Shown: positions 6,123-29,950 of the stretch, piece after piece
Layout of the letters: every line of letters begins with the position of its first letter
Numbering within the stretch: position 1 is the first letter of the stretch
Assembly: GCF_004361815.1 (NCBI RefSeq)
Contig: NZ_SNWA01000002.1
Location: 1,302,001-1,366,000, forward strand
DNA from: Paraburkholderia sp. BL10I2N1
Lineage (GTDB): Bacteria > Pseudomonadota > Gammaproteobacteria > Burkholderiales > Burkholderiaceae
Length of the DNA stretch: 64,000 nt
Direction: 5' to 3'
Notes under the pieces: generated by a model
The model's input: only the letters and a program-made list of their open reading frames with translations
What the model was told of the DNA's origin: nothing
Database searches by the model: none
Position numbers and translations under genes: made by a program

Positions 6123-6139
6123 TGATAATATCATTATCA
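6123..6139. promoter_or_regulatory. Palindromic operator A (7-3-7)
   Basis: TGATAATATCATTATCA, a perfect 7-bp inverted repeat with a 3-bp centre, 32 bases upstream of the maeB start. The 22 bases from 6123 to 6144 are identical to those from 10373 to 10394. The half-site also resembles Fur-family half-sites, whose classical Bacillus form is spaced 7-1-7. Confidence 0.7.
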
Positions 6140-6171
6140 TTGTCTGCAAATTTTGTTAACCAGAGGACATC

Positions 6172-8481
6172 ATGCCTGCCACAGTCCAGGGTAAACTCCG
6201 CGAAGCCGCCCTCGATTACCACGAGTTCCCGACCCCGGGGAAGATCGCGATCGCCCCGACCAAGCAGATGATCAACCAGCGCGACCTCGCGCTGGCGTAC
6301 TCGCCGGGCGTTGCGTTCGCGTGCGAGGAAATCGTCGAGAACCCGCTGAACGCCGCGCGCTTCACCGCGCGCAGCAACCTCGTCGGCGTCGTCACGAACG
6401 GCACCGCGGTGCTGGGTCTCGGCAACATCGGGCCGCTCGCCTCGAAGCCGGTCATGGAAGGCAAGGCCGTTCTGTTCAAGAAGTTCGCCGGCATCGACGT
6501 GTTCGATATCGAGCTGAACGAGTCCGATCCGCACAAGCTGGTCGACGTAATCGCCGCGCTCGAACCGACCTTCGGCGGCATCAACCTGGAAGACATCAAG
6601 GCGCCGGACTGCTTCATCGTCGAGCGCGAATGCCGCAAGCGCATGAAGATTCCGGTCTTCCACGACGACCAGCATGGCACGGCGATCGTGGTCGCGGCGG
6701 CGATCACCAACGGCCTGAAGGTGGTCGGCAAGAGCATCAAGGAAGTGAAGCTGGTCGCCTCCGGCGCGGGCGCGGCGGCGCTGGCCTGTCTGGATCTGCT
6801 GGTCGATATCGGCCTGCCGCTCGAAAACATCACCGTCACCGATCTGGCCGGCGTGGTCTACACGGGCCGCGTCGAGTTGATGGACCCGGACAAGGAGCGC
6901 TTCGCGCGTGAAACCGACGCTCGCACGCTCGCTGAGGCGATCGGCAACGCAGACATTTTCCTCGGCCTGTCGGCCGGCGGCGTCCTCAAGCAGGACATGG
7001 TCAAGCAGATGGCCGACAAGCCGCTGATTCTGGCGCTGGCCAACCCGACGCCCGAAATCCTGCCAGAACTCGCGCTCGAAGTGCGTCCGGACGCTGTGCT
7101 GTGCACGGGCCGTACCGACTATCCGAACCAGGTGAACAACGTGCTGGTGTTCCCGTTCCTGTTCCGCGGCGCGCTGGACGCGGGCGCGACGACAGTGACG
7201 CGTGAAATGGAAATCGCGGCGGTCAATGCGATCGCCGAACTGGCACGCCAGGAGCAGAGCGACATCGTCGCGACGGCGTACGGCATCCAGGACCTGTCGT
7301 TTGGTCCTGCCTACCTGATTCCGAAGCCGTTCGATCCGCGCCTGATCGTCAAGATCGCACCGGCGGTGGCGAAGGCCGCGATGGATTCGGGCGTTGCCGA
7401 GCGCCCGATCGAGGACATGGACGCCTACGAGCAGCACCTGCAGCAATTCGTCTATCACAGCGGCACGACCATGAAGCCGATTTTCCAGCTGGCGCGCAGC
7501 GTCGAGGCGGAGAAGAAGCGCATCGTGTTCGCGGAAGGCGAGGAAGAGCGCGTGCTGCGTGCGATGCAGATCGTGGTCGACGAAAAGCTCGCGACGCCGA
7601 TTCTGATCGGCCGCCCAGCGGTGATCAAGCACCGGATCGAGCGCTATTGCCTGCGTCTTACGCCTGGCGTCGACTTCACGATCGTCAACACCGACCACGA
7701 CGAACGTTATCGCGACTTCTGGCAGGAGTATCACCGGCTGATGGCTCGCAAGGGCATCAGCGAGCAGATGGCCAAGCTCGAAATGCGCCGCCGCACCACG
7801 CTGATCGGCGCGATGCTGGTGAAGAAGGGCGAGGCCGATGGCATGATCTGCGGCACGGTCAGCACGACACACCGGCACCTGCACTTCATCGATCAGGTGA
7901 TCGGCAAGAAGGGCGGCCGCAACGTCTATGCGGCGATGAATGGGCTGGTGCTGCCGGGCCGGCAGATCTTCCTGGTCGACACCCACGTGAACGTCGATCC
8001 GACACCCGGGCAGCTCGCCGAGATCACGATCATGGCGGCCGAAGAAGTGCGCCGCTTCGGCATCGAGCCGAAAGTCGCGCTGCTGTCGCACTCGAACTTC
8101 GGCACCAGCAACGCGCCGACCGCGCAGAAGATGCGCGACACGCTGGCGATCCTGCGCGAGCGCGCGCCGGACCTGCAGGTGGACGGCGAAATGCACGGCG
8201 ACGTTGCGCTCGACGCCAATCTGCGCCGCGAAGTGCTGCCCGACTCGACGCTCGAAGGCGACGCGAACCTGCTGATCCTGCCGAATATTGATGCGGCGAA
8301 CATCGCGTACAGCCTGCTCAAGACGGCCGCAGGCAACAACATCACAATCGGTCCGATGCTGCTGGGTGCCGCGAAGCCGGTACATGTGCTGACCGCGTCC
8401 GCCACGGTGCGTGCCATCGTCAACATGACTGCACTGGTCGTCGCCGATGCAGGTGCCGCATCCCCATCGCCCCGGGTGTGA
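6172..8481 (+). CDS. maeB: NADP-dependent malic enzyme with phosphotransacetylase-like C-terminus
   Basis: 769 residues. The N-terminal half (to about residue 430) is a MaeB-type malic enzyme that decarboxylates malate to pyruvate and makes NADPH. It has YSPGVAFACEEI, the substrate/metal segment EDIKAPDCFIVERECRK, DDQHGTAIV and the dinucleotide-binding GAGAAALACLDLL. The C-terminal half (from about residue 440, KKRIVFAEGEEERVLRAMQ) resembles phosphate acetyltransferase and in this family acts as an acetyl-CoA-sensing regulatory domain rather than a catalytic one. Length matches E. coli MaeB. It follows palindrome A closely. The NADPH it supplies would suit the accessory FabH/FabZ nearby (inference). 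Confidence 0.95.
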   Translation: MPATVQGKLREAALDYHEFPTPGKIAIAPTKQMINQRDLALAYSPGVAFACEEIVENPLNAARFTARSNLVGVVTNGTAVLGLGNIGPLASKPVMEGKAVLFKKFAGIDVFDIELNESDPHKLVDVIAALEPTFGGINLEDIKAPDCFIVERECRKRMKIPVFHDDQHGTAIVVAAAITNGLKVVGKSIKEVKLVASGAGAAALACLDLLVDIGLPLENITVTDLAGVVYTGRVELMDPDKERFARETDARTLAEAIGNADIFLGLSAGGVLKQDMVKQMADKPLILALANPTPEILPELALEVRPDAVLCTGRTDYPNQVNNVLVFPFLFRGALDAGATTVTREMEIAAVNAIAELARQEQSDIVATAYGIQDLSFGPAYLIPKPFDPRLIVKIAPAVAKAAMDSGVAERPIEDMDAYEQHLQQFVYHSGTTMKPIFQLARSVEAEKKRIVFAEGEEERVLRAMQIVVDEKLATPILIGRPAVIKHRIERYCLRLTPGVDFTIVNTDHDERYRDFWQEYHRLMARKGISEQMAKLEMRRRTTLIGAMLVKKGEADGMICGTVSTTHRHLHFIDQVIGKKGGRNVYAAMNGLVLPGRQIFLVDTHVNVDPTPGQLAEITIMAAEEVRRFGIEPKVALLSHSNFGTSNAPTAQKMRDTLAILRERAPDLQVDGEMHGDVALDANLRREVLPDSTLEGDANLLILPNIDAANIAYSLLKTAAGNNITIGPMLLGAAKPVHVLTASATVRAIVNMTALVVADAGAASPSPRV

Positions 8482-8711
8482 CGTTTCAACTGTCGGGGGC
8501 GAGCGCGGCCGGCCCGCGCCATTTCCGCGTCGACTTCGCCTTGCGAGTCCGGTGTTTTCTACGACATTCCGTGGACGAGCGCCGCATGTCGCTATCGGTG
8601 GGATTCCTTTGCGTTTCGCCGCCGGTTACTGCATGAGATATTTTGTGGAGATTGTCGGGCGATTGCACAAGTAATGCTGGATGGGTCTGGGCACCGTTCT
8701 CACTCCCGATA

Positions 8712-8897
8712 TCAGCGAGGGGGGGTGACTGAAAGAACATCAGCCGGCTCGCCGAGCCGTTGGAGCAGCGCCCGAACACGACTCTCCGACAGCAAGTCGC
8801 CTTGTTGCAAACTGCACACCAGCAGAGCATTGAGCTGTCTCGCCCAATAGTGGTCGGGCAATCGCTTAAGCGCCGCGCCGCTGTTGAGTTCAAACAC
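8712..8897 (-). CDS. Possible small protein in the maeB-fabH gap
   Basis: The 627 bases from 8482 to 9108 hold no convincing full-length gene. The best candidate is this 61-residue frame opening with GTG (VFELNSGAALKRLPDHYWA). The frame stays open upstream as LLSLRDDIAHAEH before a stop, without an ATG or a clear ribosome-binding site. Its composition (helical, Leu/Arg/Glu-rich, soluble) looks protein-like. It could be a real short gene or the end of a decayed one. No family is recognised. Confidence 0.3.
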   Translation of the reverse strand: MFELNSGAALKRLPDHYWARQLNALLVCSLQQGDLLSESRVRALLQRLGEPADVLSVTPPR

Positions 8898-9108
8898 GTG
8901 CTCAGCGTGAGCAATATCGTCTCGCAGGCTCAGCAGGGGTTATAAGCCGGAACATTTCCGTGCTTTCTCCCGAAGCTGGTTTCGACAAATGAATGATACG
9001 CGTTCCGGCCCACCGGGTTCATATCCGGAGCACACCCCGGACCGGCATGGAAGGCGCCGGCATCGGAACAGGAAAACCGGCGTGACCTGATTCTCACGGA
9101 CTGCGCCC

Positions 9109-10086
9109 CTACGCCTGCATTGCCAATGCGCCCCAGGTTACGCCGGCCCCCACCGCATGCATCAAGACCTTGTCGCCGCGACGGATACGGCCGTCCCGAT
9201 AGGCATGATCCAGGGCGAGGGGGATGGAAGCAGCAGATGTGTTGCCATGCTCACGGACAGTGGCAACCAGGCGATCGATCGGCACGCCCAGTTTGCGCGC
9301 CGTGGCTTCCATAATGCGGATGTTCGCCTGATGAGGCACGACCCAGGTGAAGTCTGACATCGCCAGGCCACACTGTGCCGCGACTTCCTCGCTGACCGCC
9401 TGGAGCGCACCGACCGCCAGCTTGAACACTGCCGGCCCATCCATGCGCAAAAACGGATCTCCCAACACAGATCCACCGGCAATGCTGCCCGCCACTTTGA
9501 GGATTTCCGAGTGGTGTCCATCGGCATGTAAGGCCGCGCCAAGTATCCCCGGCTCACCGGATGATCTCAGAACCACAGCGCCTGCGCCGTCGCCGAACAG
9601 AACGCAGGTACTGCGATCCTCGAAATCAAGGAGTCTCGAGAATGTCTCCGCTCCGATGACGAGTGCCGTCTTCACCGACGTGGCCCGTATCAGCGCGTCT
9701 GCGACCGTGAGTGCATAGATGAACCCACCGCACACCGCCTGAATGTCGAATGCCGCACAGCCGTTTCGTATTCCGAGTTTCCGCTGGACAAGGCACGCTG
9801 TGCTCGGAAAGATTGCATCGGGTGTGGTGGTGGCTACTACGATCAGATCGATGGCATCCGCTTCGATTGCCGCCGCAGACAGGGCCCGGGACGCGGCCGC
9901 TACGGCAAGATCGCTCGTTTGCGACTGACGGTCAGCGAACCGTCGGGACTGGATGCCGCTGCGTGAATAGATCCAGTCGTCGCTCGTCTCGATGCCCCTG
10001 CTGGCAAGCTGCGACACCAGGTCCGCGTTGGAAATGACGTTCGAAGGCAGGAAACTACCTGTTCCGACAATCCGTGCAAATGACAT
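9109..10086 (-). CDS. fabH: Beta-ketoacyl-ACP synthase III (accessory FabH)
   Basis: 325 residues, thiolase fold. It condenses acyl-CoA with malonyl-ACP to start a fatty acid chain. The Cys-His-Asn triad is visible: Cys119 in [10 protein letters not shown], His252 in [10 protein letters not shown] and Asn282 in [10 protein letters not shown]. The start is an ATG ([10 protein letters not shown]); a GTG nine bases upstream is less likely. It lies away from a plsX-fabH-fabD operon, so it is an extra copy. With fabZ at 2777 it suggests a dedicated acyl-chain-building capacity in this cluster. The acyl-CoA starter might come from the synthetase at the left edge (inference). Confidence 0.93.
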
Positions 10087-10156
10087 GAATAACACCGGTC
10101 AGAATGTGGAAGGAATCTCGCCGCCGTCAGGATGGACGTCCCGGAGTGAGCGAGTT

Positions 10157-10390
10157 TCATATCAGCTTTGCGACCGGCGATGAACGGCAACTGCAGCCGC
10201 CACATGCGCCGCCGGCATATCGCAAATGCCTTTCCCGCCGACTGCGAACGAGCCAGGCAACCGCATGCCGGCATTGATGCGGATGCTTCTCAAAGGTCGC
10301 CTTGTTCGCCGGATCGATCAACACCGTGACCGGGCCGAACCCGGATGTCAGACAAACGAGGAGCGCATGCCATGATAATATCATTATCAT
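10157..10390 (-). pseudogene. Decayed ribbon-helix-helix repressor gene
   Basis: The frame contains PVTVLIDPANKATFEKHPHQ, which matches LTILIDPVKKEAFEKLCAAQ of the intact RHH protein at 12137-12334 (9 of the 14 residues from T to K are identical). After FEK the similarity vanishes and the frame becomes Cys/Arg-rich, so the helix-turn-helix part is lost. Palindrome B overlaps its 5' end, as palindrome C lies just upstream of the intact gene. I infer a duplicated, inactivated regulator copy. A chance resemblance is less likely but possible over so short a stretch. Confidence 0.45.
10373..10389. promoter_or_regulatory. Palindromic operator B (7-3-7)
   Basis: TGATAATATCATTATCA, identical to operator A. 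It overlaps the start of the RHH remnant and lies about 210 bases upstream of the first spermidine-synthase-like gene. Confidence 0.7.
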
Positions 10391-10599
10391 TGTCCACCGC
10401 CTGCCTGTGGGACAGGTTTATGCCCCCAGGGGCTAGTCGTCCCGTCTCGGGTTATTGGTCCCGGCGGCAGGACATTCATGTCTGCCCGGACTGGAACCGG
10501 AGGACAGATGCGGGCCGCCAGTCAGCCCGAAGACGCAGCGGTCATCGCATGCGGTGGGCGGACCGAAGACCCGAACAGTAACCTCGCTTGGACCGCAGC

Positions 10600-11415
10600 A
10601 TGGATCACTCTCACGCGTCGTTCGACGCCTACATGAAGTTTCTTGCCGGGCCATCCGTCGACGGTGCGCCCGTGGTGCTGGAAACCGAGCACGCGCTTTC
10701 GCTGCACTTCGATCTGCTGGCCACGCAGAGTTTCATGTCCCGGCGTGACCCCGACAGGCTGGTGCTCGGCTACACCCGGACCATGATGGGATTCCTGCTG
10801 CTGCAGCCGGCGCCCACCAGAATCTCCATGATCGGCCTGGGCGGTGGATCGCTGGCAAAGTACTGCCACCGGTATCTCCCGGATACCAAAGTCGTGGCTG
10901 TCGAAATTGACCCGGCCGTGATCGCGCTACGTAATACATTTCATATTCCACCCGATAGCGAGCGATTCGAGGTGATCTGCGCGGACGGGGCGGAATACGT
11001 CAAGGGCCACGATGCGCGCCCGGACGTGATTCTGGTGGATGGCTTTCTGGCACACGGCATGCCTGCGCAACTGGGTAACGCCGGCTTTTACTCGGCTTGT
11101 CATGCGCGGCTTGCGGGCGATGGGGTGCTGGTCGCCAATTTCGCCGACGACGATCCCCATATTCCATACTACGTGGAAGAGGTGCGTTCAGTGTTCGGTG
11201 AGTCGCTTTCCATTTTCATGGCCGAGGACAGTTGCAACTACACGCTGTTTGCCTGGAAGGGCGCGCCGGGACTTCCCTCCCGGGATAAGCTCCTCGCGCG
11301 TGCGCGCGTCCTGGTCACGACACATCCCCTGAACCTGCGCGGGGCCGCACGCCGTTTGAAGCAAGGCGTGGGGCTCGCTTCAGACTGGACATTCGGGCGG
11401 AAGCTGACCGGCTGA
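10600..11415 (+). CDS. Spermidine-synthase-like protein, paralogue 1
   Basis: 271 residues with a Rossmann SAM-dependent fold of the spermine/spermidine synthase family. The nucleotide loop is MIGLGGGSLAKYC. The acidic strand end is VAVEIDPAVIALR, followed by ERFEVICADGAEYV and PDVILVDGF. Genuine polyamine synthases carry a GGGDG loop and a catalytic Asp in a D-x-x-D-P-x-G motif. Here the loop is GGGS and the second motif is DGFLAHGMPA, so the reaction is probably different and unknown. An upstream TTG at 10588 is possible, but the ATG at 10600 looks better. Two paralogues lie at 12815 and 16355, all sharing a YTR-MM-F block. Confidence 0.8.
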   Translation: MDHSHASFDAYMKFLAGPSVDGAPVVLETEHALSLHFDLLATQSFMSRRDPDRLVLGYTRTMMGFLLLQPAPTRISMIGLGGGSLAKYCHRYLPDTKVVAVEIDPAVIALRNTFHIPPDSERFEVICADGAEYVKGHDARPDVILVDGFLAHGMPAQLGNAGFYSACHARLAGDGVLVANFADDDPHIPYYVEEVRSVFGESLSIFMAEDSCNYTLFAWKGAPGLPSRDKLLARARVLVTTHPLNLRGAARRLKQGVGLASDWTFGRKLTG

Positions 11416-11603
11416 CGAAACGGCTGACGGACGCCCGATCTGCGCGGCCGGAACGGAAGTGCGGCGTGATGCGTCCACAACATACAGGCACGCGCGACGG
11501 TCGATACCGGCACCTCATGCAAGGGCCCCGGGAAGACATGACAGTCAAGGTGCCGGGACCCGGCATGGGTCCGGCAGCATCGGCGGTGCGTTGAATACCA
11601 AGG

Positions 11604-12002
11604 CTATGCCGGACCGCCGCTCATGTCCCTGCTCAGGGTAGCCACGCATTGGGCGTAGACGACGATCACCCGCGGTGATGCGAAGTTGATCTGCATGTCC
11701 CGCGTGAACAACCAGGATGCGTCCGGTTGGCCACGCACGATGTCGCCGGCTTTCACGAGTTGCCGCGCGAGATCCGCGGCCATTCGACTCAATTCAACCC
11801 GCAGGAGCCAGTCGGCATGATGATCGTGGCGACGCAGCCAGACCCTCGTGCTCTCAACAAGATGATCGGGCTGCAGCCACGCTCCGGTGGTGCGAAAGGC
11901 AAATATCTCGGATAACGTGAGAAAGCACAGCACCTCTGCGTTCGTCTCAAGTCGGTGCATCCTGCGACCTGTCATATCGTTGCGGCCGCGACGGCCGGAC
12001 AT
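11604..12002 (-). CDS. Hypothetical protein
   Basis: 132 residues when started at the ATG of MSGRRGRNDM, which has GAGGGTAA at suitable spacing; a TTG lies 24 nt upstream. The protein is Arg-rich and soluble, with a strand-helix pattern such as DWLLRVELSRMAADLARQLV and a C-terminal SPRVIVVYAQCVATLS. No family is recognised. It sits between the spermidine-synthase-like paralogue 1 and the RHH gene. With the RHH gene 134 bases upstream on the same strand, co-transcription from palindrome C is possible. Confidence 0.55.
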   Translation of the reverse strand: MSGRRGRNDMTGRRMHRLETNAEVLCFLTLSEIFAFRTTGAWLQPDHLVESTRVWLRRHDHHADWLLRVELSRMAADLARQLVKAGDIVRGQPDASWLFTRDMQINFASPRVIVVYAQCVATLSRDMSGGPA

Positions 12003-12136
12003 CGTCACGTTACCCTCATCGTGCAATCTTTCCTATGCACGCTGAAGCAGGCTGCCGAAGAGGCCTGCGGTGCCGTGGAACCAGGACAGCGCGATGCCTG
12101 CGCGGGGTCACGTCGCTGACCTGGCGCCGGCGTACC

Positions 12137-12334
12137 TCAGGCGGTTTTTCGGCGTGGACGCGCGCCCATTGCGCTTTTGGTCCGGTAGCTGACGCCATGC
12201 TGATCGAGGTAGTCGCGGATCAGTTGCCGCACTACCTGTGAGGGCGTCAGGTCCTGCGCCGCGCAAAGTTTTTCGAACGCTTCCTTCTTCACAGGATCGA
12301 TCAGAATCGTGAGTCGAGCGCTTTTCGTTTCCAT
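12137..12334 (-). CDS. Ribbon-helix-helix (CopG/Arc-type) DNA-binding protein
   Basis: 65 residues. The N-terminal beta-strand is ARLTILIDP, helix A is VKKEAFEKLCAAQ, the turn is DLTPSQ, and helix B is VVRQLIRDYLDQHG. This is the complete RHH fold, which dimerises through the strand and inserts it in the major groove. A basic tail (RTKSAMGARPRRKTA) follows. RHH proteins usually repress their own promoter through short palindromes, and palindrome C begins 22 bases upstream of the start. I propose this as the regulator reading the 7-3-7 palindromes in this cluster. No toxin partner is seen next to it, which argues against a toxin-antitoxin role. Confidence 0.8.
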   Translation of the reverse strand: METKSARLTILIDPVKKEAFEKLCAAQDLTPSQVVRQLIRDYLDQHGVSYRTKSAMGARPRRKTA

Positions 12335-12356
12335 GACGGTGGGCGAAGTCCAAGTA

Positions 12357-12373
12357 TGATAATTAAATTATAA
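12357..12373. promoter_or_regulatory. Palindromic operator C (7-3-7, one mismatch)
   Basis: TGATAATTAAATTATAA. The left half matches the consensus and the right half differs at one base. It is followed by TTCAT in a generally A/T-rich patch. Position just upstream of the RHH gene suggests autoregulation. Confidence 0.6.
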
Positions 12374-12505
12374 TTCATCGTGTGGCCCGAGTCATCTTCG
12401 TGGCACCAGAATCACGCGGCGGCCGGCGATTCCCGCTTGCATCGCCGATGCCCAGCAGCTCAGCGGCCAGGAAACCAAAGACGTGCAGCGCGCGGAGACG
12501 GTACG

Positions 12506-12733
12506 CTAAATCTCCGCCCTGGCACGCAGAAAATCCTGTCCAGCCCGGGTAATCGACACACCGCCCCGCCCATTCGCGGGGACGGATACCAACCCGGCGT
12601 TACGCAGTTCCTGCGCGACCGACCAGTTTAGCGTGGGCGCGTCGCGGCCGTATCGCTGCTGGGCCAGACGCTCAAGCGCCCAGATGGCTGCATGGGTCAG
12701 GGGGCTGCTGTCGTTGTCACGTTCCGCTGTCAT
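12506..12733 (-). CDS. Small hypothetical protein
   Basis: 75 residues from the ATG of MTAERDNDSS, which has GAGGA eight bases upstream; a GTG 21 nt further up is less likely. It is helical with a C-terminal WSVAQELRNAGLVSVPANGRGGVSITR-type stretch that looks like a winged-helix or MarR-like half (helix, turn, Gly-rich wing, strand). Too short for a firm assignment. It stands between the RHH gene and paralogue 2 on the minus strand. Confidence 0.55.
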   Translation of the reverse strand: MTAERDNDSSPLTHAAIWALERLAQQRYGRDAPTLNWSVAQELRNAGLVSVPANGRGGVSITRAGQDFLRARAEI

Positions 12734-12814
12734 TTTCCATCCTCGAGAATGCACCTGCTCAAACAGGCCACGAACGTGCAGGGGTTGCCATCCACCAGCG
12801 ACAGATGCATCCGC

Positions 12815-13582
12815 TCAGCACGTCTGTTCATATCGTTGCCAGTTAAATTTCTTGCCGTACTCGATGCGGGTGGCCGTCGCATGGAGGTTCACCGCATGTG
12901 TGGGTCCGAGTGCGCGCGCCCGGTCGAGCATCGTTGCGAAGGACGGAAGCTCATCCGCGCCCTTCCACGCAAACACAGTGACGTTGTGTTCACTCCCTTC
13001 CGACGGCGCCAGGGTTACCGCGTTCGCGAAGGCCTCCCTGAGCGAGCGCAGGTAGCGATGGAAGTCCGGTTCGTCGGTCACCAGATTGGCCACCAGGACG
13101 CCGTCATCGCTCAACCTGCGACGACAGGCTTCATAAAACGTCCTGCTGCCCAGTTCTGCGGGCAGACCATCGGCATTGAAACCGTCGACCAGCAGCACGT
13201 CGGGCCGGTGATCCGGAACGGTGACGTACTGCGCGCCATCGGCACAAACCACCCTGAAGCGTTCACTGTCACGCGGAACATGAAACCGGTCGCGCAGCGC
13301 GATCACCTGGGAATTGATTTCGACGACGGAAATCATGGTGTCGGGCAAATGACGATAACAGTATTTCGCGAGCGACCCGCCACCCAGACCGATCATCGAA
13401 ATGCGGCGCGGGAATGGCTGGAAGAGCAGGAAGCCCATCATGGTGCGCGTGTAACCCAGCGCAAGGGCGTAGGGATCGTGCCGCAACATGGTGCTCTGCA
13501 CGCCGCGCGCATCGAAGTACAGTGAAACGACCTGGTCATTCTCTATGACCACCGGCTTGCTCGTCTTCCTCTTTCTTTTCAT
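12815..13582 (-). CDS. Spermidine-synthase-like protein, paralogue 2
   Basis: 255 residues, same family as 10600-11415. It has RISMIGLGGGSLAKYC, VVEINSQVIALRDRFHVP, ERFRVVCADGAQYV and PDVLLVDGFNADGLPAELG. The N-terminus is shorter and strongly basic (MKRKRKTSKP), and the first domain seen in true spermidine synthases is reduced. The GGGS loop and DGFNADGLPA again replace the canonical catalytic motifs. It lies 68 bases downstream of the HPr-like gene on the same strand, so it is probably the third gene of a palindrome-D operon (unknown protein, HPr-like, paralogue 2). Confidence 0.8.
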   Translation of the reverse strand: MKRKRKTSKPVVIENDQVVSLYFDARGVQSTMLRHDPYALALGYTRTMMGFLLFQPFPRRISMIGLGGGSLAKYCYRHLPDTMISVVEINSQVIALRDRFHVPRDSERFRVVCADGAQYVTVPDHRPDVLLVDGFNADGLPAELGSRTFYEACRRRLSDDGVLVANLVTDEPDFHRYLRSLREAFANAVTLAPSEGSEHNVTVFAWKGADELPSFATMLDRARALGPTHAVNLHATATRIEYGKKFNWQRYEQTC

Positions 13583-13650
13583 GTGTGTGATTGAATAGTT
13601 CGCATGCGGGGCCGATCGACAGGCGTGAGCCGGATCCCCGCATCGGTCCG

Positions 13651-13914
13651 TCAGAAAGAGTCCTGCACATGAAGAATGGCCGCAAGCGCTTCAAGCGCTG
13701 CAGTCTCGTCGGGACCGGTCGCGAGAATGCGCACCTGCGTGCCCGGCTTCGCCCGAAGGGACATGACCGACATGACATCCTTGGCATTGACGGACCGGCC
13801 GTTCGCCATACAGACGATGTCGCTCGCAAACCGGGCGGCGCTAACGGCGAGCCTCGCTGACTCGTGCCCGTTTAAACCCCATCGACCACCAATCTGAATC
13901 AATGCCTCGACCAA
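13651..13914 (-). CDS. HPr-like protein lacking His15 and Ser46
   Basis: 87 residues if started at the TTG at 13914, which has AAAGGGGAG just upstream. That start puts residues in register with HPr. The His15 phosphorylation loop (GLHxRP) is GLNGHE, so position 15 is Asn and Arg17 is His. The Ser46 region (AKSIMGVMSL in firmicutes) is AKDVMSVMSL, so position 46 is Asp. The rest of the HPr fold is kept (NGRSVNAKD, GTQVRILATGPDETAALEAL). An in-frame ATG at 13956 would add 14 residues. It cannot work as a phosphocarrier; a regulatory, possibly constitutive P-Ser-mimicking role is inferred. It sits 60 bases (18 from the ATG) after the upstream gene. Confidence 0.75.
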   Translation of the reverse strand: MVEALIQIGGRWGLNGHESARLAVSAARFASDIVCMANGRSVNAKDVMSVMSLRAKPGTQVRILATGPDETAALEALAAILHVQDSF

Positions 13915-13974
13915 CCCCGCTCCCCTTTGTACGTAAGCAGTGACCCAGCGCCCCATGTCCCCACGCAGTCGCGC

Positions 13975-14466
13975 TCAGTGCATCACGCTTGCAATGACCT
14001 GGGCAAAGAAAGCACGCAGCAGTGGATCCCACGTTTCATTCCGTACTGCAATTTCGGCCGTGTCGAGCCGCCGCATGTCCCGATCCAGATACACCACGCG
14101 CAACGATTTCGGATGCGGTGGACCGACAAAGAACTGACCGTCATCGTCCAGAAACAGGCACGGCCTCTGCCTGTATCGCGCTCCGGACCGCGAGGTCGCG
14201 TCGTGGACGTGGCGAGCCGATTCCTTCTGATAGACGAAGATGACGTTCACTCCGCACGCTTCCAGGCGGTCACAGATATCGGAAAACCGGTAGAGCATCT
14301 GGAATCCGCGTTCACCCGCCTTGTCCACGCCGATGACGATCAGTCCGCGACGACCCATTACGTCCCTCAGATACCGGTGCGTGTAGTCGTGGGACAGCAG
14401 CGGAACACTTGCATCAATCACATCGACCTCCCCGCCGCGCCCGGACAGTTGCCCCGTTTCGCGCAT
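13975..14466 (-). CDS. Unknown protein, possible thioredoxin-like fold
   Basis: 163 residues. GRRGLIVIGVDKAGERGFQM reads like a strand-loop-helix, followed by a helix, then ACGVNVIFVYQKESA, and later RPCLFLDDDGQFFVG. This order of strand, helix, strand, helix and a C-terminal hairpin recalls peroxiredoxin or thioredoxin folds, but the CxxC or peroxidatic Cys is absent. I do not assign a function. It is the first gene behind palindrome D (73 bases upstream) and probably heads an operon with the HPr-like gene and spermidine-synthase-like paralogue 2. Confidence 0.55.
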   Translation of the reverse strand: MRETGQLSGRGGEVDVIDASVPLLSHDYTHRYLRDVMGRRGLIVIGVDKAGERGFQMLYRFSDICDRLEACGVNVIFVYQKESARHVHDATSRSGARYRQRPCLFLDDDGQFFVGPPHPKSLRVVYLDRDMRRLDTAEIAVRNETWDPLLRAFFAQVIASVMH

Positions 14467-14539
14467 GCCTGGCCTGCAACATGACCAGCAGGATTGTGGC
14501 CCGTAGCCGCCATATCATTACCATAACAGCATACATTAA

Positions 14540-14556
14540 TGATAATTATATTATCA
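14540..14556. promoter_or_regulatory. Palindromic operator D (7-3-7)
   Basis: TGATAATTATATTATCA, a perfect 7-bp inverted repeat extended by A and T on each side. It is 73 bases upstream of the minus-strand gene at 14466 and about 185 bases beyond the end of the DUF1275 gene. Confidence 0.7.
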
Positions 14557-14726
14557 TGTTTTTGCACTACTCACCCTGACGGATCCGGCTGGCCTGTTTG
14601 CCGGTTCTCCAATGCGCAGGTGCGTGACCGTGGAGGGTGGTCGCGAAGCAGTAGGTTGCGTGACTCCGGATTGACGGCGCATGCCGGGTCCGAACGGTCG
14701 TCTGCCGTGTGGTTTGTGGCCGCAGC

Positions 14727-15488
14727 CTAACGATCAAGTCGATAGATCTGCGCGCGCAGGTCGTCGATGAGAGGAACAATGGCCAGCACAATCAGCACGC
14801 CCGCAAGCGGCACCGTCGACGCGTATCCAATGTGCTTGAATCCCATTGCCCCCGTGACGCCACCGACGAAGAACATGGCCAGCATCGTCCCGTGAACTTT
14901 CAGCCTCGTTCGATTCGCCAGCACAAACGGCTCTGCGGGGTCGACGCTGGAGGAATTCCAGTAGAAAAGTTTGCCGAGCTCGATGCCGATATCCGTCACG
15001 ATGCCGGTCATGTGGGTGGTACGGATTTCCGCGCCCGACAGCTTGGTGATCATCGCGTTCTGCAGCCCCATGATGAAGCACAGCAGCACGACCGTCGCGG
15101 GCACGAACAGGGTCTCCCACATCGCCAGATGGCCGCCGAGCAATCCGAAGCACAGGAGCAGAAGCGCCTCGATCAGCAACGGCGACGCGTACTGACTGTT
15201 CAGCCGCCGGCGCCGCCCCCAATTGACGAGCATCGCGGAACTGGCAGCGCCGAACATGAACGAAATCAGCGATCCGGCGCCCGCCAGAACCAGCGAGAGG
15301 TCGCCCAGTGCAGTCTGATCGGCAATTGCCGATACCACGCCGCTCATATGGGACGTGTATTGCTTCACCGCCAGGAAGCCGCCGGCGTTGGTTGCGCCAG
15401 CCACGAACGCGAGCGAGAAGCCAAGCTGCCTGTCGGCCCCGGAACTGCGGTCCTTTCCGGTCAGCGCCCGGAAATAGTGTGCTGGCAT
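14727..15488 (-). CDS. DUF1275 (YoaK-type) membrane protein
   Basis: 253 residues with about six hydrophobic helices. The family signatures are present: LAFVAGATNAGGFLAVKQYTSHMSG near the N-terminus, IMGLQNAMITK in the middle, then IRTTHMTGIVTDIGIELG. Function of the family is not established; an inner-membrane transporter-like role is usually proposed. A homologue lies at 29951. It is divergent from the CZB-like gene, with palindrome E in the shared 393-base intergenic region (15489-15881), which holds no other gene. Confidence 0.85.
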   Translation of the reverse strand: MPAHYFRALTGKDRSSGADRQLGFSLAFVAGATNAGGFLAVKQYTSHMSGVVSAIADQTALGDLSLVLAGAGSLISFMFGAASSAMLVNWGRRRRLNSQYASPLLIEALLLLCFGLLGGHLAMWETLFVPATVVLLCFIMGLQNAMITKLSGAEIRTTHMTGIVTDIGIELGKLFYWNSSSVDPAEPFVLANRTRLKVHGTMLAMFFVGGVTGAMGFKHIGYASTVPLAGVLIVLAIVPLIDDLRAQIYRLDR

Positions 15489-15682
15489 CAGGTATCAACC
15501 CGTGTGTTCGTCAGTCCAGGTGCGCTTCGACAAAAGCCGGCACCGGCGCAGCAGGTGGGATTTTGAATTTCCACGCGCAGGGTGAAGTCCTGCATTCGCG
15601 GTGCCCCGAGCGAACACGGCACGTTCGTCGCGCACGCCGCTGGATCGTCGCGTATGGAATCAGATCAACAAAGCTGCTAGGA

Positions 15683-15699
15683 TGATAACGCAATTATCA
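15683..15699. promoter_or_regulatory. Palindromic operator E (7-3-7, one mismatch)
   Basis: TGATAACGCAATTATCA. The left half differs at one base from the consensus. It lies between the divergent DUF1275 gene and the plus-strand run 15882 to 24365, so it could control the CZB-like gene, paralogue 3 and the whole hydrogenase-related operon. Confidence 0.65.
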
Positions 15700-15881
15700 T
15701 TAACTGGTAACTTGATGCTCCTGACGAAGCCTCCACGAGGCCAGTAACAGGCAGGGAAGCCTTCTATGTGTTCGCAGCGGCAACGATCCAGGGGCAACGT
15801 GGTTCGTAGCGGCAAAAGGACAGGGTTCGGCAACTGGCGGGATGCCGGCCCGACGGGCGCGCCGTATTGGGGAGAAGTGTC

Positions 15882-16277
15882 ATGACGTTTGACGACTTTC
15901 TTGAAGGGCACCGGTTAGCTGGCGTCTCGTTGGGTGATGGCATGCTTGAGCGCGTGCGGCTCGCCAGGTCCGCGTTCGACAACGAGCGGCTCGACGGACT
16001 CGGGCGCTGGGTTCATGAAGTTCAGGCGCGGCGGGACGACGCTCCTGAGCTTCACCAGTTGATGCTGGCACATGCAAGCTTCCGTGCCATTGCGCTGATA
16101 ATCGAGATTTCCGTCACGCAGGGGAGACTCGCTGACGCGGTCGCCATGCTTGAGTCTGACGGTCTGCTCGATAACGCGACGCGCATGCTCGCGCACGCGC
16201 TGTCGTGTTTCGAAAAGTGCCAGGACGTGGGCGCCACGCTCGCATTCACGCCAGCATCGCACGGCCTTATACATTAA
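15882..16277 (+). CDS. CZB-like (chemoreceptor zinc-binding-like) small protein
   Basis: 131 residues, ATG preceded by GGGGAGAAG. The region LGRWVHEVQ..., ELHQLMLAHASFRAIAL, a Gly-containing turn (TQGRLADAVAML) and the C-terminal NATRMLAHALSCFEK follow the pattern of CZB domains (LGKW, then HxxFH-like helix, then A-x-x-L). The first zinc His and the Cys of the usual HWxxR/C motif are not evident, so zinc binding may be lost. CZB domains sense zinc or hypochlorite in signalling proteins. It is 77 bases ahead of spermidine-synthase-like paralogue 3 and probably the first gene of that operon. Confidence 0.55.
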   Translation: MTFDDFLEGHRLAGVSLGDGMLERVRLARSAFDNERLDGLGRWVHEVQARRDDAPELHQLMLAHASFRAIALIIEISVTQGRLADAVAMLESDGLLDNATRMLAHALSCFEKCQDVGATLAFTPASHGLIH

Positions 16278-16354
16278 GGTTGACGTGACAACCCAGTCGT
16301 CGTGTGACTCCGTTTCGTGGCAACTGATCTGCGCAGTTTCAGGAGAATATTGAC

Positions 16355-17182
16355 TTGTCGGCCGATCACAATCAGTTCAGGCAGGCCCTGGCGGAGCGGT
16401 GGGGAAAGACGTATGGAAAACCCGTGGTGCGCGAGGGGCTGCGCACGCGGTCGCTGTGTTTCGACGCCTTCGGCATACAAAGCTCAATGCGCACGAGTGA
16501 TCCGCTCGAACCGGATCTGTCGTACACGCGGGCCATGATGTCGTTCCAGCTCTTTCACCCCGCCCCCAGGGACATCCTGATCGTGGGTCTGGGCGGAGGA
16601 TCCCTGTCGAAACACTGCTTCCACAAATTTCCGTTGGCACGGGTGACCACCGTGGAAATCGACGAGGGAGTGATCGCGTTACGCGAGTGTTTTTTCATTC
16701 CGCCTGATTCGGAACGATTCCGGATCGTGCACGCCGACGCCGCCAAATATCTCCCGGACAGGATTGGCATCGCGGATGTAATCCTGCTCGACGGTTTTAA
16801 CGCGTTTGGCCTGCCCGCCAGCCTGTCGAGTCAGTACTTTTACGACTGCTGCCATGCCGCGCTGCGTGATGAAGGCGTGCTGGTAGCCAATCTGCTCAAC
16901 AACGACTCGCAGCTACCCACCCACCTCGACCGGATACGCCGTGCGTGCGACGGAAAACTGTTCCGCACCATGGCGCGACGCGAAGGCAACACCATTGCCA
17001 TCGGCATCAGACAGGCGATCGTGCCGGGATGGCAGGACCTCTATGCCCGCGCCGAAGCCATCACGAAATCGATGGGGCTTGACCTGTGCCAGTATGTCAA
17101 AAAAATGGAACGTCACCACCGGGTAGAACCGGTTTCGGGATACCCTTCGTCCTCCACACTGGCCGTTGAACAAAACATCTGA
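16355..17182 (+). CDS. Spermidine-synthase-like protein, paralogue 3
   Basis: 275 residues starting at TTG with AGGAG nine bases upstream; no better start is available. Family motifs are ILIVGLGGGSLSKHC, VTTVEIDEGVIALRECFFIP, ERFRIVHADAAKYL and ADVILLDGFNAFGLPASLS. It is the most diverged of the three, with an extra C-terminal tail of about 30 residues (VKKMERHHRVEP..). The GGGS loop and lack of a D-x-x-D-P motif argue against spermidine synthesis. Only 20 bases separate it from the hyfB-like gene, so it is almost certainly co-transcribed with the membrane complex. Confidence 0.8.
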   Translation: MSADHNQFRQALAERWGKTYGKPVVREGLRTRSLCFDAFGIQSSMRTSDPLEPDLSYTRAMMSFQLFHPAPRDILIVGLGGGSLSKHCFHKFPLARVTTVEIDEGVIALRECFFIPPDSERFRIVHADAAKYLPDRIGIADVILLDGFNAFGLPASLSSQYFYDCCHAALRDEGVLVANLLNNDSQLPTHLDRIRRACDGKLFRTMARREGNTIAIGIRQAIVPGWQDLYARAEAITKSMGLDLCQYVKKMERHHRVEPVSGYPSSSTLAVEQNI

Positions 17183-17202
17183 CGGCAACGGAGACAACGC
17201 CG

Positions 17203-19212
17203 ATGGAACATTTGCTGGTCGTCCATTACGTGCTGCTGGTAGTCGCGGGCTGGCTGATCGTTGGAATGCTTGGGCTGGGCACTCTGCGTCGCACCCGCAT
17301 GGTGGCGCATGGCCTGTTCCCTGTCGGTGCAGTGTTCGGCCTGTTCCTGTGCGGACTGGGCCTGACCGGCGTTTTCGCGGGTCCTCAGGAAGTCATCCTG
17401 CCGCTCGGGTTGCCGGGCCTGCCGTTCCATCTGCGGCTCGACGGCCTGTCAGCGTATTTCCTCGCTGTCCTCGGTGTGGTGAGCACGGGGGTAAGTGCGT
17501 TCTCCGCCGGCTATTTCCGCAAGGGCGAAGGCACGCCTCCCGGACTCATCTGCTTTGAGTACCACGTGTGCCTCGCAAGCATGGCGGTGCTGCTGCTCGC
17601 GGACGATGCATATTGCTTCATGGTCGCGTGGGAGACAATGACACTCTCGGCCACCTTCCTGGTGATGACCAATCACCGCCTTGCCGAGATTCGGCGGGCC
17701 GCCTGGCTCTACTTCCTGATCTCCCACGTCGGCGCGTTGGCGTTGCTGCTGTGTTTTGGCCTGCTGCAGGCCAATACCGGCGACTATACGTTCGCCAACA
17801 TGCGCCAGCAACATCTGGACGTGTTCTGGGCATCCATCGCATTCCTGCTGGCACTGTTCGGCTTCGGCACCAAGGCCGGCATCGTTCCGCTGCATGTCTG
17901 GCTGCCCGAGGCGCATCCGGCCGCGCCGTCGCCGGTATCGGCCCTCATGAGCGGCTTCGTCCTGAAAGCCGGCCTGTACGGCGTGCTGCGCACGGTGTTC
18001 GACCTGCTGCACGTGCAGATTGCATGGTGGGGCGTGCTCATGCTGGTGCTCGGGCTCTTCACCGCCCTGTTCGGCGTCGTGTTCAGCGCCATCCAGACGG
18101 ACATGAAGCGGCTGCTTGCGTACTCGTCGATCGACAACATCGGCCTGATGTTCGTCAGCATGGGGCTGGCGATCCTGTTTCGCGCGTATGGCATGAGCGC
18201 GCTGGCAGCGTTGTCCTTGACGGCACTGCTCTACCAGATCGCCAGCCACGCGACGTTCAAGAGCCTGCTGTTCCTCGGCACGGGTTCGGTGCTACACGCG
18301 ACGGGCGAGCGCAATCTCGGGCGCCTGGGCGGCCTGATCCGCTTCATGCCGTGGACCGCATGGGCGGCTCTTGTGGGCGCGCTGACCAGTGCAGGCCTGC
18401 CGCCCTTGAGCGGTTTTGTCTCCGAATGGCTGCTGCTGCAAAGCTTCCTGTTCACACCGGGCTTGCCAGACCCGTTCCTGAACATGGTGGTTCCGCTTGT
18501 TGCCGCGTTAATCGCCCTGGTAGCCGCTCTCGCCGGCTACACGATGGTCAAGTTTTTCGGCATCGTCTTTCTTGGCCAGCCTCGCGAGACGAAGCTTCGC
18601 GACGCACGCGATGCAAGCCCGTGGGAACGGGCCGGGTTCGTGTGGCTGGCAGCGATATGCGTGCTGCTCGGCCTGTTGCCGGTACAGTTTGTGATCGTTC
18701 TGGATCGCGTCACACAGCTGCTGGTGGGCGCGGGCATCGGACCCGCAGTGGCAAGGCATGGCTGGCTGCTGCTCGCACCCATCAGCGTCGAGCGGGCCAG
18801 CTACATGCCAGCGGTTTTCCTGCTGTTCTTCTTCGCCTGTTGCGGGCTTGGGTGGCTGCTGGTCCGCCGCCTCTATCACGGGCGCCTGCGGCGAGCCGCG
18901 CCATGGGCCTGTGGCTATCCGTTCGTCAACGCGCGGATGCAGGACACAGCCGAAGGGTTCGGTCAGCCGATCCGCGAAATCTTCGCGCCTCTGTTCAGGA
19001 TCGAACGGCGGCTTCCCTCTCCGTTCGACAAACAACCCGTGTATGGCGTCACCGTGACGGATCGCGCGTGGACCCTGATCTATCAGCCGCTGGAGCGGCT
19101 GGTCAGGCGCGTCGCGGCACTGGCCGGGTTACTGCAAACTGGCCGCATCGCCGTCTATCTGATGCATAGCTTTCTCGTGCTGATCGTGCTGCTGATGCTG
19201 GTGAGACGATGA
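17203..19212 (+). CDS. HyfB-like antiporter subunit of a hydrogenase-related complex
   Basis: 669 residues, about 16 transmembrane helices, Mrp/NuoL-type proton-translocating subunit. The conserved Glu of TM5 is in MVAWETM and the Lys of TM7 in FGTKAGIVPLHVWLPEAHP. It resembles the hydrogenase-4 subunit HyfB and HycC. An ATG with GGAGAC upstream opens it, and it overlaps the next gene by 4 bases. It would couple electron transfer in the peripheral arm to ion movement across the inner membrane. The partner large subunit lacks the Ni-Fe site, so it belongs to the energy-converting-hydrogenase-related (Ehr) group. Confidence 0.88.
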   Translation: MEHLLVVHYVLLVVAGWLIVGMLGLGTLRRTRMVAHGLFPVGAVFGLFLCGLGLTGVFAGPQEVILPLGLPGLPFHLRLDGLSAYFLAVLGVVSTGVSAFSAGYFRKGEGTPPGLICFEYHVCLASMAVLLLADDAYCFMVAWETMTLSATFLVMTNHRLAEIRRAAWLYFLISHVGALALLLCFGLLQANTGDYTFANMRQQHLDVFWASIAFLLALFGFGTKAGIVPLHVWLPEAHPAAPSPVSALMSGFVLKAGLYGVLRTVFDLLHVQIAWWGVLMLVLGLFTALFGVVFSAIQTDMKRLLAYSSIDNIGLMFVSMGLAILFRAYGMSALAALSLTALLYQIASHATFKSLLFLGTGSVLHATGERNLGRLGGLIRFMPWTAWAALVGALTSAGLPPLSGFVSEWLLLQSFLFTPGLPDPFLNMVVPLVAALIALVAALAGYTMVKFFGIVFLGQPRETKLRDARDASPWERAGFVWLAAICVLLGLLPVQFVIVLDRVTQLLVGAGIGPAVARHGWLLLAPISVERASYMPAVFLLFFFACCGLGWLLVRRLYHGRLRRAAPWACGYPFVNARMQDTAEGFGQPIREIFAPLFRIERRLPSPFDKQPVYGVTVTDRAWTLIYQPLERLVRRVAALAGLLQTGRIAVYLMHSFLVLIVLLMLVRR

Positions 19213-20159
19213 TCACACTCTCCGGATTGCTCTCCCAGGGGCTTGAAATCCTGCTGGCACTGGCGGCCGCGCCTTTGCTGACGGGCTGGGTCAACATGTG
19301 CCGCGCCCGTTTGCAGAACCGCCGCTCGCCGAGCATCTGGCAGCCTTACCGGATGCTTCACAAGCTGTTCAACAAGGAGTCGGTCGTCGCCGGTCATGCC
19401 AGCCCCCTGTTCCGCGGGGCACCCTATGTTGTCTGGGCGTGCATGACGCTTGCCAGCGCGATCGTGCCGACACTGTCGACCGACCTGCCGCTGTCGCCGG
19501 CCGCCGATGCGATCGCCCTCGTGGGCCTCTTCGCGCTGGCCCGCGTGGTGATCTCGCTGGCCGCGATGGACATCGGTACCGCATTCGGCACACTGGGCGC
19601 ACGCCGCGAAATGCTGGTCGGTTTCCTCGCGGAGCCGGCCTTGCTGATGGTGCTCTTTTCAGCGTCGCTGATTACGCGATCCACCTTGCTGACCAGCATC
19701 GTCGCGACGCTCAGCCATCGCGAGCTGGCGATCTACCCGAGCCTCGCATTCGCGGGGATCGCGTTCACGATGGTGTCGCTCGCCGAGAACGCGCGCCTGC
19801 CGGTCGACAACCCCACCACGCACCTTGAACTGACGATGATCCACGAGGCGCTGATCCTCGAGTATTCCGGGCGGCATCTCGCGCTGATGGAGTGGGCCGC
19901 CAGCCTCAAGCTGTTCGCGTACTCCTGCATCGGCCTTGCGCTGTTCATCCCGTGGGGCATTGCCGAAGCGGGCAATCCGCTGGCGCTGCTGTTCGCGATA
20001 CCGGCGCTGTTCGTCAAGTTGCTGGTGGGTGGCGCAGCGCTCGCGGTCGTCGAGACGACCAACGCGAAGATGCGCATTTTCCGTGTGCCGGAGTTTCTCG
20101 CGACAGCCTTCCTGCTGGCTGTCATTGGAATGCTCGTCCACTTCCTGCTGGGGGCGTGA
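19209..20159 (+). CDS. HyfC/NuoH-like membrane subunit
   Basis: 316 residues, about eight transmembrane helices. It corresponds to complex I subunit 1 / HycD / HyfC, which links the quinone-site module to the membrane arm. The family features ENARLPVDNPTTHLELTMIHE (acidic loop) and NRRSPSIWQPYRMLHKLFNKE are clear. It overlaps the hyfB-like gene (ATGA) and abuts the next gene directly. Charged loop residues needed in NuoH seem intact, so energy coupling may be preserved. Confidence 0.88.
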   Translation: MITLSGLLSQGLEILLALAAAPLLTGWVNMCRARLQNRRSPSIWQPYRMLHKLFNKESVVAGHASPLFRGAPYVVWACMTLASAIVPTLSTDLPLSPAADAIALVGLFALARVVISLAAMDIGTAFGTLGARREMLVGFLAEPALLMVLFSASLITRSTLLTSIVATLSHRELAIYPSLAFAGIAFTMVSLAENARLPVDNPTTHLELTMIHEALILEYSGRHLALMEWAASLKLFAYSCIGLALFIPWGIAEAGNPLALLFAIPALFVKLLVGGAALAVVETTNAKMRIFRVPEFLATAFLLAVIGMLVHFLLGA

Positions 20160-20819
20160 ATGCACGGCTACGCGACGCAGATCATCAACTTCCTGGCCGC
20201 CATCCTGCTGCTGCTGTCGTTTGCCATGCTCAGCCAGCGCCGGATCCTGTCCCTGATCCACCTCTACACCCTGCAGGGGCTGACACTCGTGGCAGCCAAT
20301 CTGATCCTGGGATTTGTCACGGACGACGTCCACCTCTATATCTCCGCCGCACTGACCCTGGTGCTCAAGGTCGGCCTGATTCCCTGGATTCTTTACAGGC
20401 TCGTGCAGCGGCTCAACGTGAAGACCGACGTCGAACCGCTGCTCAATATCCCGGCGACCCTGCTCGTTGGCATCGTGCTCGTGATCATCGCGTTCAACGT
20501 GGCCTCGCCGATCAGCCAGCTCGCCTCGTCGGTCGCGCGCGGCACGCTCGGCATTGCACTCGCCTGCGTGCTGCTGTCGTTCATGATGATGATCACGCGC
20601 GCGAAAGCGATACCGCAGGTGATCGGCTTCCTGTCGATGGAAAACGGCCTGTTTTTTGCCGCGGCAGCGGCGACGAACGGCATGCCGATGATCGTCGAAC
20701 TCGGTATCGGACTCGATGTGCTGGTCGGCATTCTGATCCTTGGCGTGTTCATGTTCCAGATCCGCGAGCAGTTCGACAGTCTGGACATTCATCACCTTGA
20801 AAAACTCAAAGATGACTGA
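20160..20819 (+). CDS. HyfE-like membrane subunit
   Basis: 219 residues, seven or so transmembrane helices. It is similar to hydrogenase-4 component E, a NuoK-like subunit with an N-terminal extension (SLIHLYTLQGLTLVAANL, FLSMENGLFFAAAAATNGMP). The Glu in SMENG corresponds to the buried membrane carboxylate of this family. It starts immediately after the hyfC-like stop and overlaps the hyfF-like start by 8 bases. Confidence 0.85.
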   Translation: MHGYATQIINFLAAILLLLSFAMLSQRRILSLIHLYTLQGLTLVAANLILGFVTDDVHLYISAALTLVLKVGLIPWILYRLVQRLNVKTDVEPLLNIPATLLVGIVLVIIAFNVASPISQLASSVARGTLGIALACVLLSFMMMITRAKAIPQVIGFLSMENGLFFAAAAATNGMPMIVELGIGLDVLVGILILGVFMFQIREQFDSLDIHHLEKLKDD

Positions 20820-22272: not shown

Positions 22273-22275
22273 AGC

Positions 22276-29916: not shown

Positions 29917-29950
29917 TCGTATCCTTTGCGCGTCTCGGCTGCCATGCTTG

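Follow-up and report, generated by a model that had tools for sequence, protein, structure and literature searches.

Analysis of a 64,000-nucleotide stretch of the Paraburkholderia sp. BL10I2N1 genome (contig NZ_SNWA01000002.1, positions 1,302,001 to 1,366,000; here called the window) revealed five palindromes of the form TGATAAT-N3-ATTATCA around a gene for a small ribbon-helix-helix (RHH) protein of the RHH_9 family. These palindromes are very probably operators of that protein, which is predicted to repress its own gene and to control local metabolic genes. An earlier reading of the same DNA (the original prediction) had proposed a candidate regulon with a shared regulator. Sequence comparison strongly supports a local regulon regulated by the RHH protein, through co-occurrence of protein and palindrome, fixed spacing between the palindrome and the RHH start codon, synteny and recurrence across genera.

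Palindromes and their association with RHH genes

Sites A (6123..6139) and B (10373..10389), both TGATAATATCATTATCA, and site D (14540..14556, TGATAATTATATTATCA) match the palindrome without mismatch; sites C (12357..12373) and E (15683..15699, TGATAACGCAATTATCA) contain one mismatch each. All five palindromes of the original prediction were recovered, as was the identity of A and B across 22 bases, and no further one occurs in the window at up to three mismatches, where 0.52 were expected and five were reached in 0 of 100 shuffles. Site A lies 32 bp upstream of the start codon of the malic-enzyme gene maeB, site C 22 bp upstream of the RHH gene and site D 73 bp upstream of an open reading frame (ORF) of 163 codons. 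Site B is 198 bp from the spermidine-synthase-like gene 1, and site E is 194 bp from a DUF1275 gene and 167 bp from a divergent ORF. The claim that the palindromes stand near gene starts is loose for B and E.

In the whole genome (9.2 Mb), the only palindromes at up to one mismatch are those in the window; the reversed pattern gave one match. The genome-wide scan at up to two mismatches that the original prediction had suggested returned six palindromes against two for the backward control. The sixth one (C2:1386371) is located within a 314-codon ORF. An interval of 9.6 kb surrounding the RHH gene holds five of the six (p ~7e-15 for uniform placement, calculated post hoc), a clustering that fits a putative local operator and not the sites of a global regulator. 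A relaxed form of the operator, TKWTAAYNNNRTTAWMA, has one additional exact match in this genome, on contig C4 (L231, G000:C4:243467), where an aldehyde-dehydrogenase ORF follows after 46 bp; this may be a distant regulon member or a chance match. When one mismatch was allowed, 9 matches were obtained against 8 for the backward control, and the relaxed form is therefore not specific genome-wide.

We searched 299 genomes of the family for the RHH protein (E<=0.001) and for the palindrome (at most one mismatch). The protein was matched in 93 genomes (91 after dropping the weak matches G106 and G218), the palindrome in 96. For genomes of at least 4 Mb (220 in number), 65 of the 90 with the RHH protein contain the palindrome, versus 9 of the 130 without it (Fisher p ~4e-25, with kinship between genomes not corrected for). 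Over all 299 genomes the corresponding figures are 65/91 and 31/208, and 22 of these 31 genomes are smaller than 4 Mb.

Further, we examined the position of the sites relative to RHH genes. Eighty regions were fetched; the counts cover 79 of them together with the first 40 kb of the window, the region of a truncated RHH copy in the same genome (L146) being left out. The regions contain 91 RHH genes with matched N terminus, which are part of all RHH places found. A site with at most three mismatches is found 16-31 bp upstream of the start codon in 70 of the 91 genes, and 50 of these 70 sites stand at 21 or 22 bp, like site C. The 80 loci contain 28, 40, 51 and 37 sites of the 7-3-7 form with zero, one, two and three mismatches, respectively, versus 0, 0, 0 and 8 in one first-order Markov resample.

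The spacer of three is strongly preferred: it joins 68 half-site pairs at up to one mismatch and 119 at up to two, compared with 0 and 1 for a spacer of one. Other convergent spacers (0, 6, 9 and 12) gave 6, 29, 19 and 8 pairs at up to two mismatches and 0, 4, 1 and 1 at up to one. Since most of these pairs are no more than 25 bp away from a spacer-3 site (6/6, 29/29, 16/19 and 6/8, in the same order), they are read as its shadows or as third half-sites. The everted arrangement ATTATCA-N5-TGATAAT also exceeds background, with 25 cases at up to two mismatches against 0-7 for other everted spacers. Sites A and E each have such an everted third half-site at 5-bp spacing and in phase (6133-6157 and 15693-15711; the one at E is TGGTAAC), and site A is followed by a weaker in-phase half-site pair, TGCAAAT ttt GTTAACC.

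We wondered how far this organization extends. Through the motifs ARLT[IVL]LIDP and D[LQ]T[PA]SQV[VI]R, at least 78 loci were found in Paraburkholderia, Burkholderia, Caballeronia, Trinickia, Ralstonia, Cupriavidus, Rugamonas, Collimonas and Pseudomonas; the matches listed also include bins called Pandoraea, Tolumonas, Gallionellaceae, Moraxellaceae and others. Among the matches listed, TKWTAAYNNNRTTAWMA (at most one mismatch) is found within 60 bp upstream of the RHH gene in 69 of 78 (0.22 in shuffles). This concerns also 22 of the 25 listed loci titled outside Burkholderiaceae (0.06 in shuffles), two of the 25 (L210 and L222) being bins without family name. The 64 distinct 21-mers among the matches listed yield an extended consensus, ATKATAAT-N3-ATTAWCAT, with the A and T outside the 17-mer present in 98%.

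The 19-mer ATKATAAYNNNRTTAWMAT (at most one mismatch) was then located in 10 whole genomes. It occupies 38 distinct places, 32 of them within 20 kb of a detected RHH gene, and the pattern read backwards gave 2 forward matches against 37 for the 19-mer itself. Two of the six remaining places are on C3 of P. xenovorans, whose strain LB400 has the locus (L157), and resemble a second locus of this kind with an RHH gene. Matches are present in 16 of 17 further genomes scanned (one of which, G304, is a repeat).

RHH protein and proposed mode of action

The RHH gene (12137..12334, minus strand) encodes 65 residues. Its product scores 77.5 bits against the Pfam RHH_9 profile (PF19839, E=6.8e-22), for which the curated cut-off is 23.4, and is thereby a member of this family. 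It also matches PF01402 (E=6.9e-05), and only RHH profiles match in Pfam. No effector domain was found in the protein. A single-chain AlphaFold model (mean predicted local distance difference test, pLDDT, 73.9) displays an extended start and helices at residues 14-27 and 31-45, with no strand assigned. Best Foldseek matches of the modelled chain are the RHH domains of PutA, CopASO, ORF56 and CopG, with probability 0.95-1.00 and E of 0.1-0.3; the chain is short, and no match reached E<=0.001. The model thus resembles solved RHH proteins and is consistent with an RHH fold. Sequence search against solved structures retrieved no close relative (ORF56 at E=0.035, PutA at E=0.2); TAL-effector matches from this search were discarded as sums of many 14-residue matches.

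Comparison of 129 distinct sequences revealed that Arg7, Thr9 and Leu11 are the same in all of them, partly by way of the search motif; these residues alternate along the strand presumed to read the DNA. Cys24 (the single invariant cysteine), Arg40 and Tyr42 are likewise invariant in 129/129 and lie outside the search motifs.

In the RHH class, half-sites are typically paired about one helical turn apart and the operator overlaps the protein's own promoter. The RHH_9 protein encoded beside site C would bind all five palindromes as operators. With 10 bp between half-site centres, or roughly one turn of the helix, two dimers, one per 7-bp half-site, would be expected to sit on the same face of the DNA. 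Additional half-sites at a distance of 12 bp suggest that cooperative arrays may be formed.

Operators of RHH genes show a characteristic asymmetry. Among the matches listed, T occupies position 2 of the upstream half in 72%, and the mirror position of the downstream half is C in 91%. T at position 2 turns TGATAAT into TTATAAT, which contains TATAAT; this asymmetry would be expected if such a box were built into the operator. The hexamer in the upstream half is TATAAT in 67 and TACAAT in 17 of 108 cases (84 together), a count in which only the choice between T and G is informative, as the pattern used itself contains KATAAT. Site C, whose upstream half in RHH orientation is TTATAAT, contains the -10 hexamer of the best promoter-like match in the region (ATGACT-17-TATAAT, 12395-12367 on the minus strand, 10/12 positions), and a built-in -10 element would account for the deviation of C from the remaining four. 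A modest -35 signal appears to accompany RHH operators: at least 4/6 positions agree in 25 of 108 cases at spacer 17, which is the best one, compared with 17 cases at spacer 10. The overlap of operator and -10 box is supportive, not proof, since A+T-rich sites resemble -10 boxes by composition. Binding of the RHH protein to site C would block RNA polymerase and result in autorepression; such self-repression by occlusion is likely at RHH genes. RHH genes of one genus, here g3 (L118, L123-L125, L128-L130, L132, L140, L144 and L145; one record Cupriavidus), have an ATAAT-containing box upstream and no operator.

Putative targets and gene neighbourhood

By the same interaction, the RHH protein would act, as a repressor or in another way, on maeB, on the spermidine-synthase-like genes, on the group of the 163-codon ORF and the HPr-like gene, and on the divergent DUF1275 and hyf-like genes. 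Burkholderia sp. 4M9327F10 (L154) and OK233 (L155) possess all five sites with their flanking genes in the order of the window. Alignments of relatives, which were ungapped and limited to rows having a site, so that site conservation and flank divergence are both overstated, gave identical columns as follows: site A 17/17 versus 43/90 in the flanks (4 rows), B 16/17 versus 3/90 (6 rows), C 13/17 versus 28/90 (6 rows), D 12/17 versus 8/90 (8 rows) and E 14/17 versus 29/90 (8 rows). The same 17 bases precede maeB in L154, L155 and L162.

The strongest indication of a wider regulon is the malic-enzyme link. In Pseudomonas L213, L215, L216, L226 and L227, the degenerate 19-mer is matched without mismatch 33 bp upstream of a malic-enzyme gene whose surroundings are unlike those in the window; these genes are 95-100% identical and hence not independent cases. 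One-mismatch sites also precede second malic-enzyme genes in L215, L226 and L227 (the L215 protein match is in three pieces). Apart from maeB, the rest of the cluster was not found in the Pseudomonas loci compared, and their RHH gene still has the operator. The genome studied here contains three maeB copies. The site of the window copy is perfect, compared with a best match of seven mismatches in the 240 bp examined at the paralogue at C1:916071 (92% protein identity). The genome-wide scan detected no site near the third copy, the start of which was not located.

The window's maeB (6172..8481, plus strand) encodes a malic enzyme fused to phosphate acetyltransferase (Pfam malic, Malic_M and PTA_PTB). 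Between sites A and B lies a KAS III (FabH)-like gene (9109..10095, minus strand; Pfam ACP_syn_III). Site B is situated between the spermidine-synthase-like gene 1 and a possible decayed second RHH copy (10157..10351, minus strand), which contains an VTVLIDPANKATFEK remnant. This identification is tentative: 43 bp align locally with the RHH gene, site B would stand some 21 bp from the ancestral start, and the remnant has no Pfam match and no tblastn match at 1e-3. Other, weaker RHH remnants stand by site B in L154, L155 and L162, with B itself intact. As the remnants decay and B does not, B may now serve the spermidine-synthase-like gene 1, a suggestion that depends on a short remnant. Another RHH copy, elsewhere in the genome (L233, G000:C1:4119301), is truncated to residues 25-65 with 78% identity, and no site with at most two mismatches was found in the surrounding 20 kb (L146).

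Spermidine-synthase-like gene 1 (10588..11415, plus strand; Pfam Spermine_synth) is listed with a TTG start and has an in-frame ATG at codon 5; its product scores under every NCBIfam polyamine aminopropyltransferase equivalog cut-off. Downstream of the RHH gene and on the same strand is a 140-codon ORF without Pfam match (11604..12026, minus strand). On the other side of site C, an 82-codon ORF (12506..12754, minus strand), found in several relatives and without family match, is possibly in operon with the next genes; it is followed along the window by spermidine-synthase-like gene 2 (12815..13582, minus strand), the gene for the HPr-like protein (13651..13956, minus strand; Pfam PTS-HPr) and the 163-codon ORF (13975..14466, minus strand). 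The last of these is the first gene downstream of site D, which contains TATAAT on the minus strand; it occurs in many relatives and has no family match.

Site E occupies the control region between the DUF1275 gene (14727..15488, minus strand; Pfam PF06912) and a divergent series (15867..24365, plus strand) that probably forms one operon. The series comprises a 136-codon ORF, spermidine-synthase-like gene 3 and hyfB-, hyfC-, hyfE-, hyfF- and hyfG-like genes, as judged by Pfam scans, and beyond the scanned genes an ORF at 23838-24365. It is related to hydrogenase-4 or complex I; the gene at 20160-20819 matches the NCBIfam hydrogenase 4 membrane subunit below its cut-off, and the hydrogenase-4/complex-I-like genes at 17203-24365 include a fused 30/49-kDa-type subunit. 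A second DUF1275 gene, at 29948-30772, has no palindrome.

Neighbours of RHH genes vary, being a 140-codon ORF, a spermidine-synthase-like gene or a convergent SulP-type transporter, and no toxin profile, such as a type II toxin-antitoxin module would have beside the RHH gene, was detected in the subset of neighbours scanned. The convergent arrangement with the transporter was observed in Pseudomonas L216 (10255-11910) and the Tolumonas bin L195 (10259-11968). Several Pseudomonas loci have sites with two mismatches some 1.9 kb downstream from the start of the RHH gene; these sites may coincide with the start of such a transporter gene (position checked for the L216 ORF).

Alternative explanations and relation to known systems

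Several observations speak against assigning the palindromes to the RHH protein as operators. Within the host genus alone the association is modest, the palindrome being found in 9 of 16 genomes with the protein and 4 of 23 without it (p ~0.02). Among large genomes, 25 with the protein have no site at up to one mismatch; the fetched region contains a form with two or three mismatches in 15 of them and none in 5, and 5 were not fetched. No site with at most three mismatches was detected within 60 bp upstream of 21 of the 91 RHH genes, of which 11 belong to genus g3, 6 are second copies with long tails and 4 (L081, L082, L110 and L143) have degenerate site-like sequence as judged by eye. L191 and L210 have an RHH gene without relaxed operator, and the genome of L191 is the exception among the 17 further genomes. 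Conservation in the named loci is partly built in, because the loci were found through the two protein motifs. Sites B and E are 167-198 bp from the starts they are assigned to, no clear promoter was detected at site A, and no site with at most two mismatches precedes the 163-codon ORF in L069/L158 and L071. In P. fluorescens FW300-N2E3 the RHH site is the only one in the genome, which argues against maeB as a fixed target.

The sites could also be real operators of another regulator, either a different protein of the cluster (e.g. the product of the 82- or 163-codon ORF) or one encoded elsewhere, the RHH gene being merely a target. Both ORFs recur in numerous Paraburkholderia and Burkholderia loci, and neither has an assigned function. 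However, a tblastn search (E<=1e-8, coverage >=35%, at which diverged small ORFs may escape) did not find them in the loci compared from Pseudomonas and from the Tolumonas and Moraxellaceae bins, where the RHH operator is kept; a regulator encoded elsewhere in those genomes may still act there. As a whole, we regard this explanation as improbable.

A Fur-family regulator responding to iron or another metal was the main alternative in the original prediction. The TGATAAT half-site resembles Fur-type half-sites in its A+T-rich sequence, and Fur-like sites may exist elsewhere in the genome, which has 69 matches to the 7-1-7 form at up to three mismatches against 28 for the backward control. Nevertheless, classical Fur boxes have the 7-1-7 spacing that is nearly absent from the 80 loci in comparison with 7-3-7, and the palindromes considered here have a spacer of three and are tied to RHH neighbourhoods. 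No 7-1-7 match at up to three mismatches is listed in the interval, the best one in the genome has two mismatches, and the five 7-3-7 sites, the only ones in the genome at up to one mismatch, belong to a motif whose distribution follows the RHH protein. Fur is thus a highly improbable regulator of these sites. Least probable of all is a locally duplicated mobile or repetitive element without regulatory role, as the identity of A and B and the duplicated genes nearby (three spermidine-synthase-like genes, the possible decayed RHH copy) might suggest, for the five copies share little beyond the site, sites persist in place among relatives while the flanks of B and D diverge, the position upstream of RHH genes is nearly fixed across genera, and the genome has no copy elsewhere at up to one mismatch.

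Assignment of the palindromes to the RHH_9 protein would provide a probable regulator and operator for a cluster that includes malic enzyme, spermidine-synthase-like enzymes, an HPr-like protein, DUF1275 and a hydrogenase-4-like complex. It would also give a predicted role to PF19839, members of which occur in Burkholderia, Paraburkholderia, Caballeronia, Trinickia, Ralstonia, Pseudomonas and others, and a 65-residue protein with a 19-bp site is a simple system to test. A broader picture, which we consider rather unlikely as a whole, would make the RHH protein an old and widespread autorepressor in beta- and gammaproteobacteria that has an operator code to itself (the extended consensus) in arrays and is repeatedly tied to malic enzyme and in Burkholderiaceae to the hydrogenase-4/complex-I-like complex, and perhaps sensing redox via Cys24. 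Boxes of the FNR/Anr type (TTGAYNNNNRTCAA) were tried and rejected: four were found at up to one mismatch against 4.74 expected, none beside a site, and a link to oxygen therefore gains no support from that scan.

Literature search, with most subscription journals outside its coverage, retrieved no description of the operator, of PF19839 or of the control of the cluster. According to two papers, the low-oxygen-activated (lxa) locus of Burkholderia cenocepacia is a gene cluster with universal stress proteins (PMC6127331, PMC9060813), and the oxygen regulator discussed in the former is the CRP-family protein BCAM0049; the words "ribbon" and "motif" are absent from the texts of both. As in the lxa cluster, a universal stress protein (Usp) gene is present in the window (25067-25597); no Usp was found among 10 ORFs of Burkholderia locus L175, scanned with an lxa identity in mind.

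The RHH protein and its operator are best placed, on sequence grounds, as a putative autoregulated RHH repressor with a small regulon. Long RHH regulators such as NikR and PutA have an added C-terminal sensor or enzyme domain, in contrast to the 65-residue protein described here. Closer in kind are the CopG/Arc/MetJ-type repressors, which are likewise short RHH proteins: the modelled chain superposes on DNA-bound CopG (1ea4) with a root-mean-square deviation of 1.2 over 42 columns and a TM-score by target of 0.81, and also on the DNA-binding domains of PutA and antitoxins. Unlike these repressors, the present protein belongs to PF19839 and is predicted to control a chromosomal metabolic cluster.

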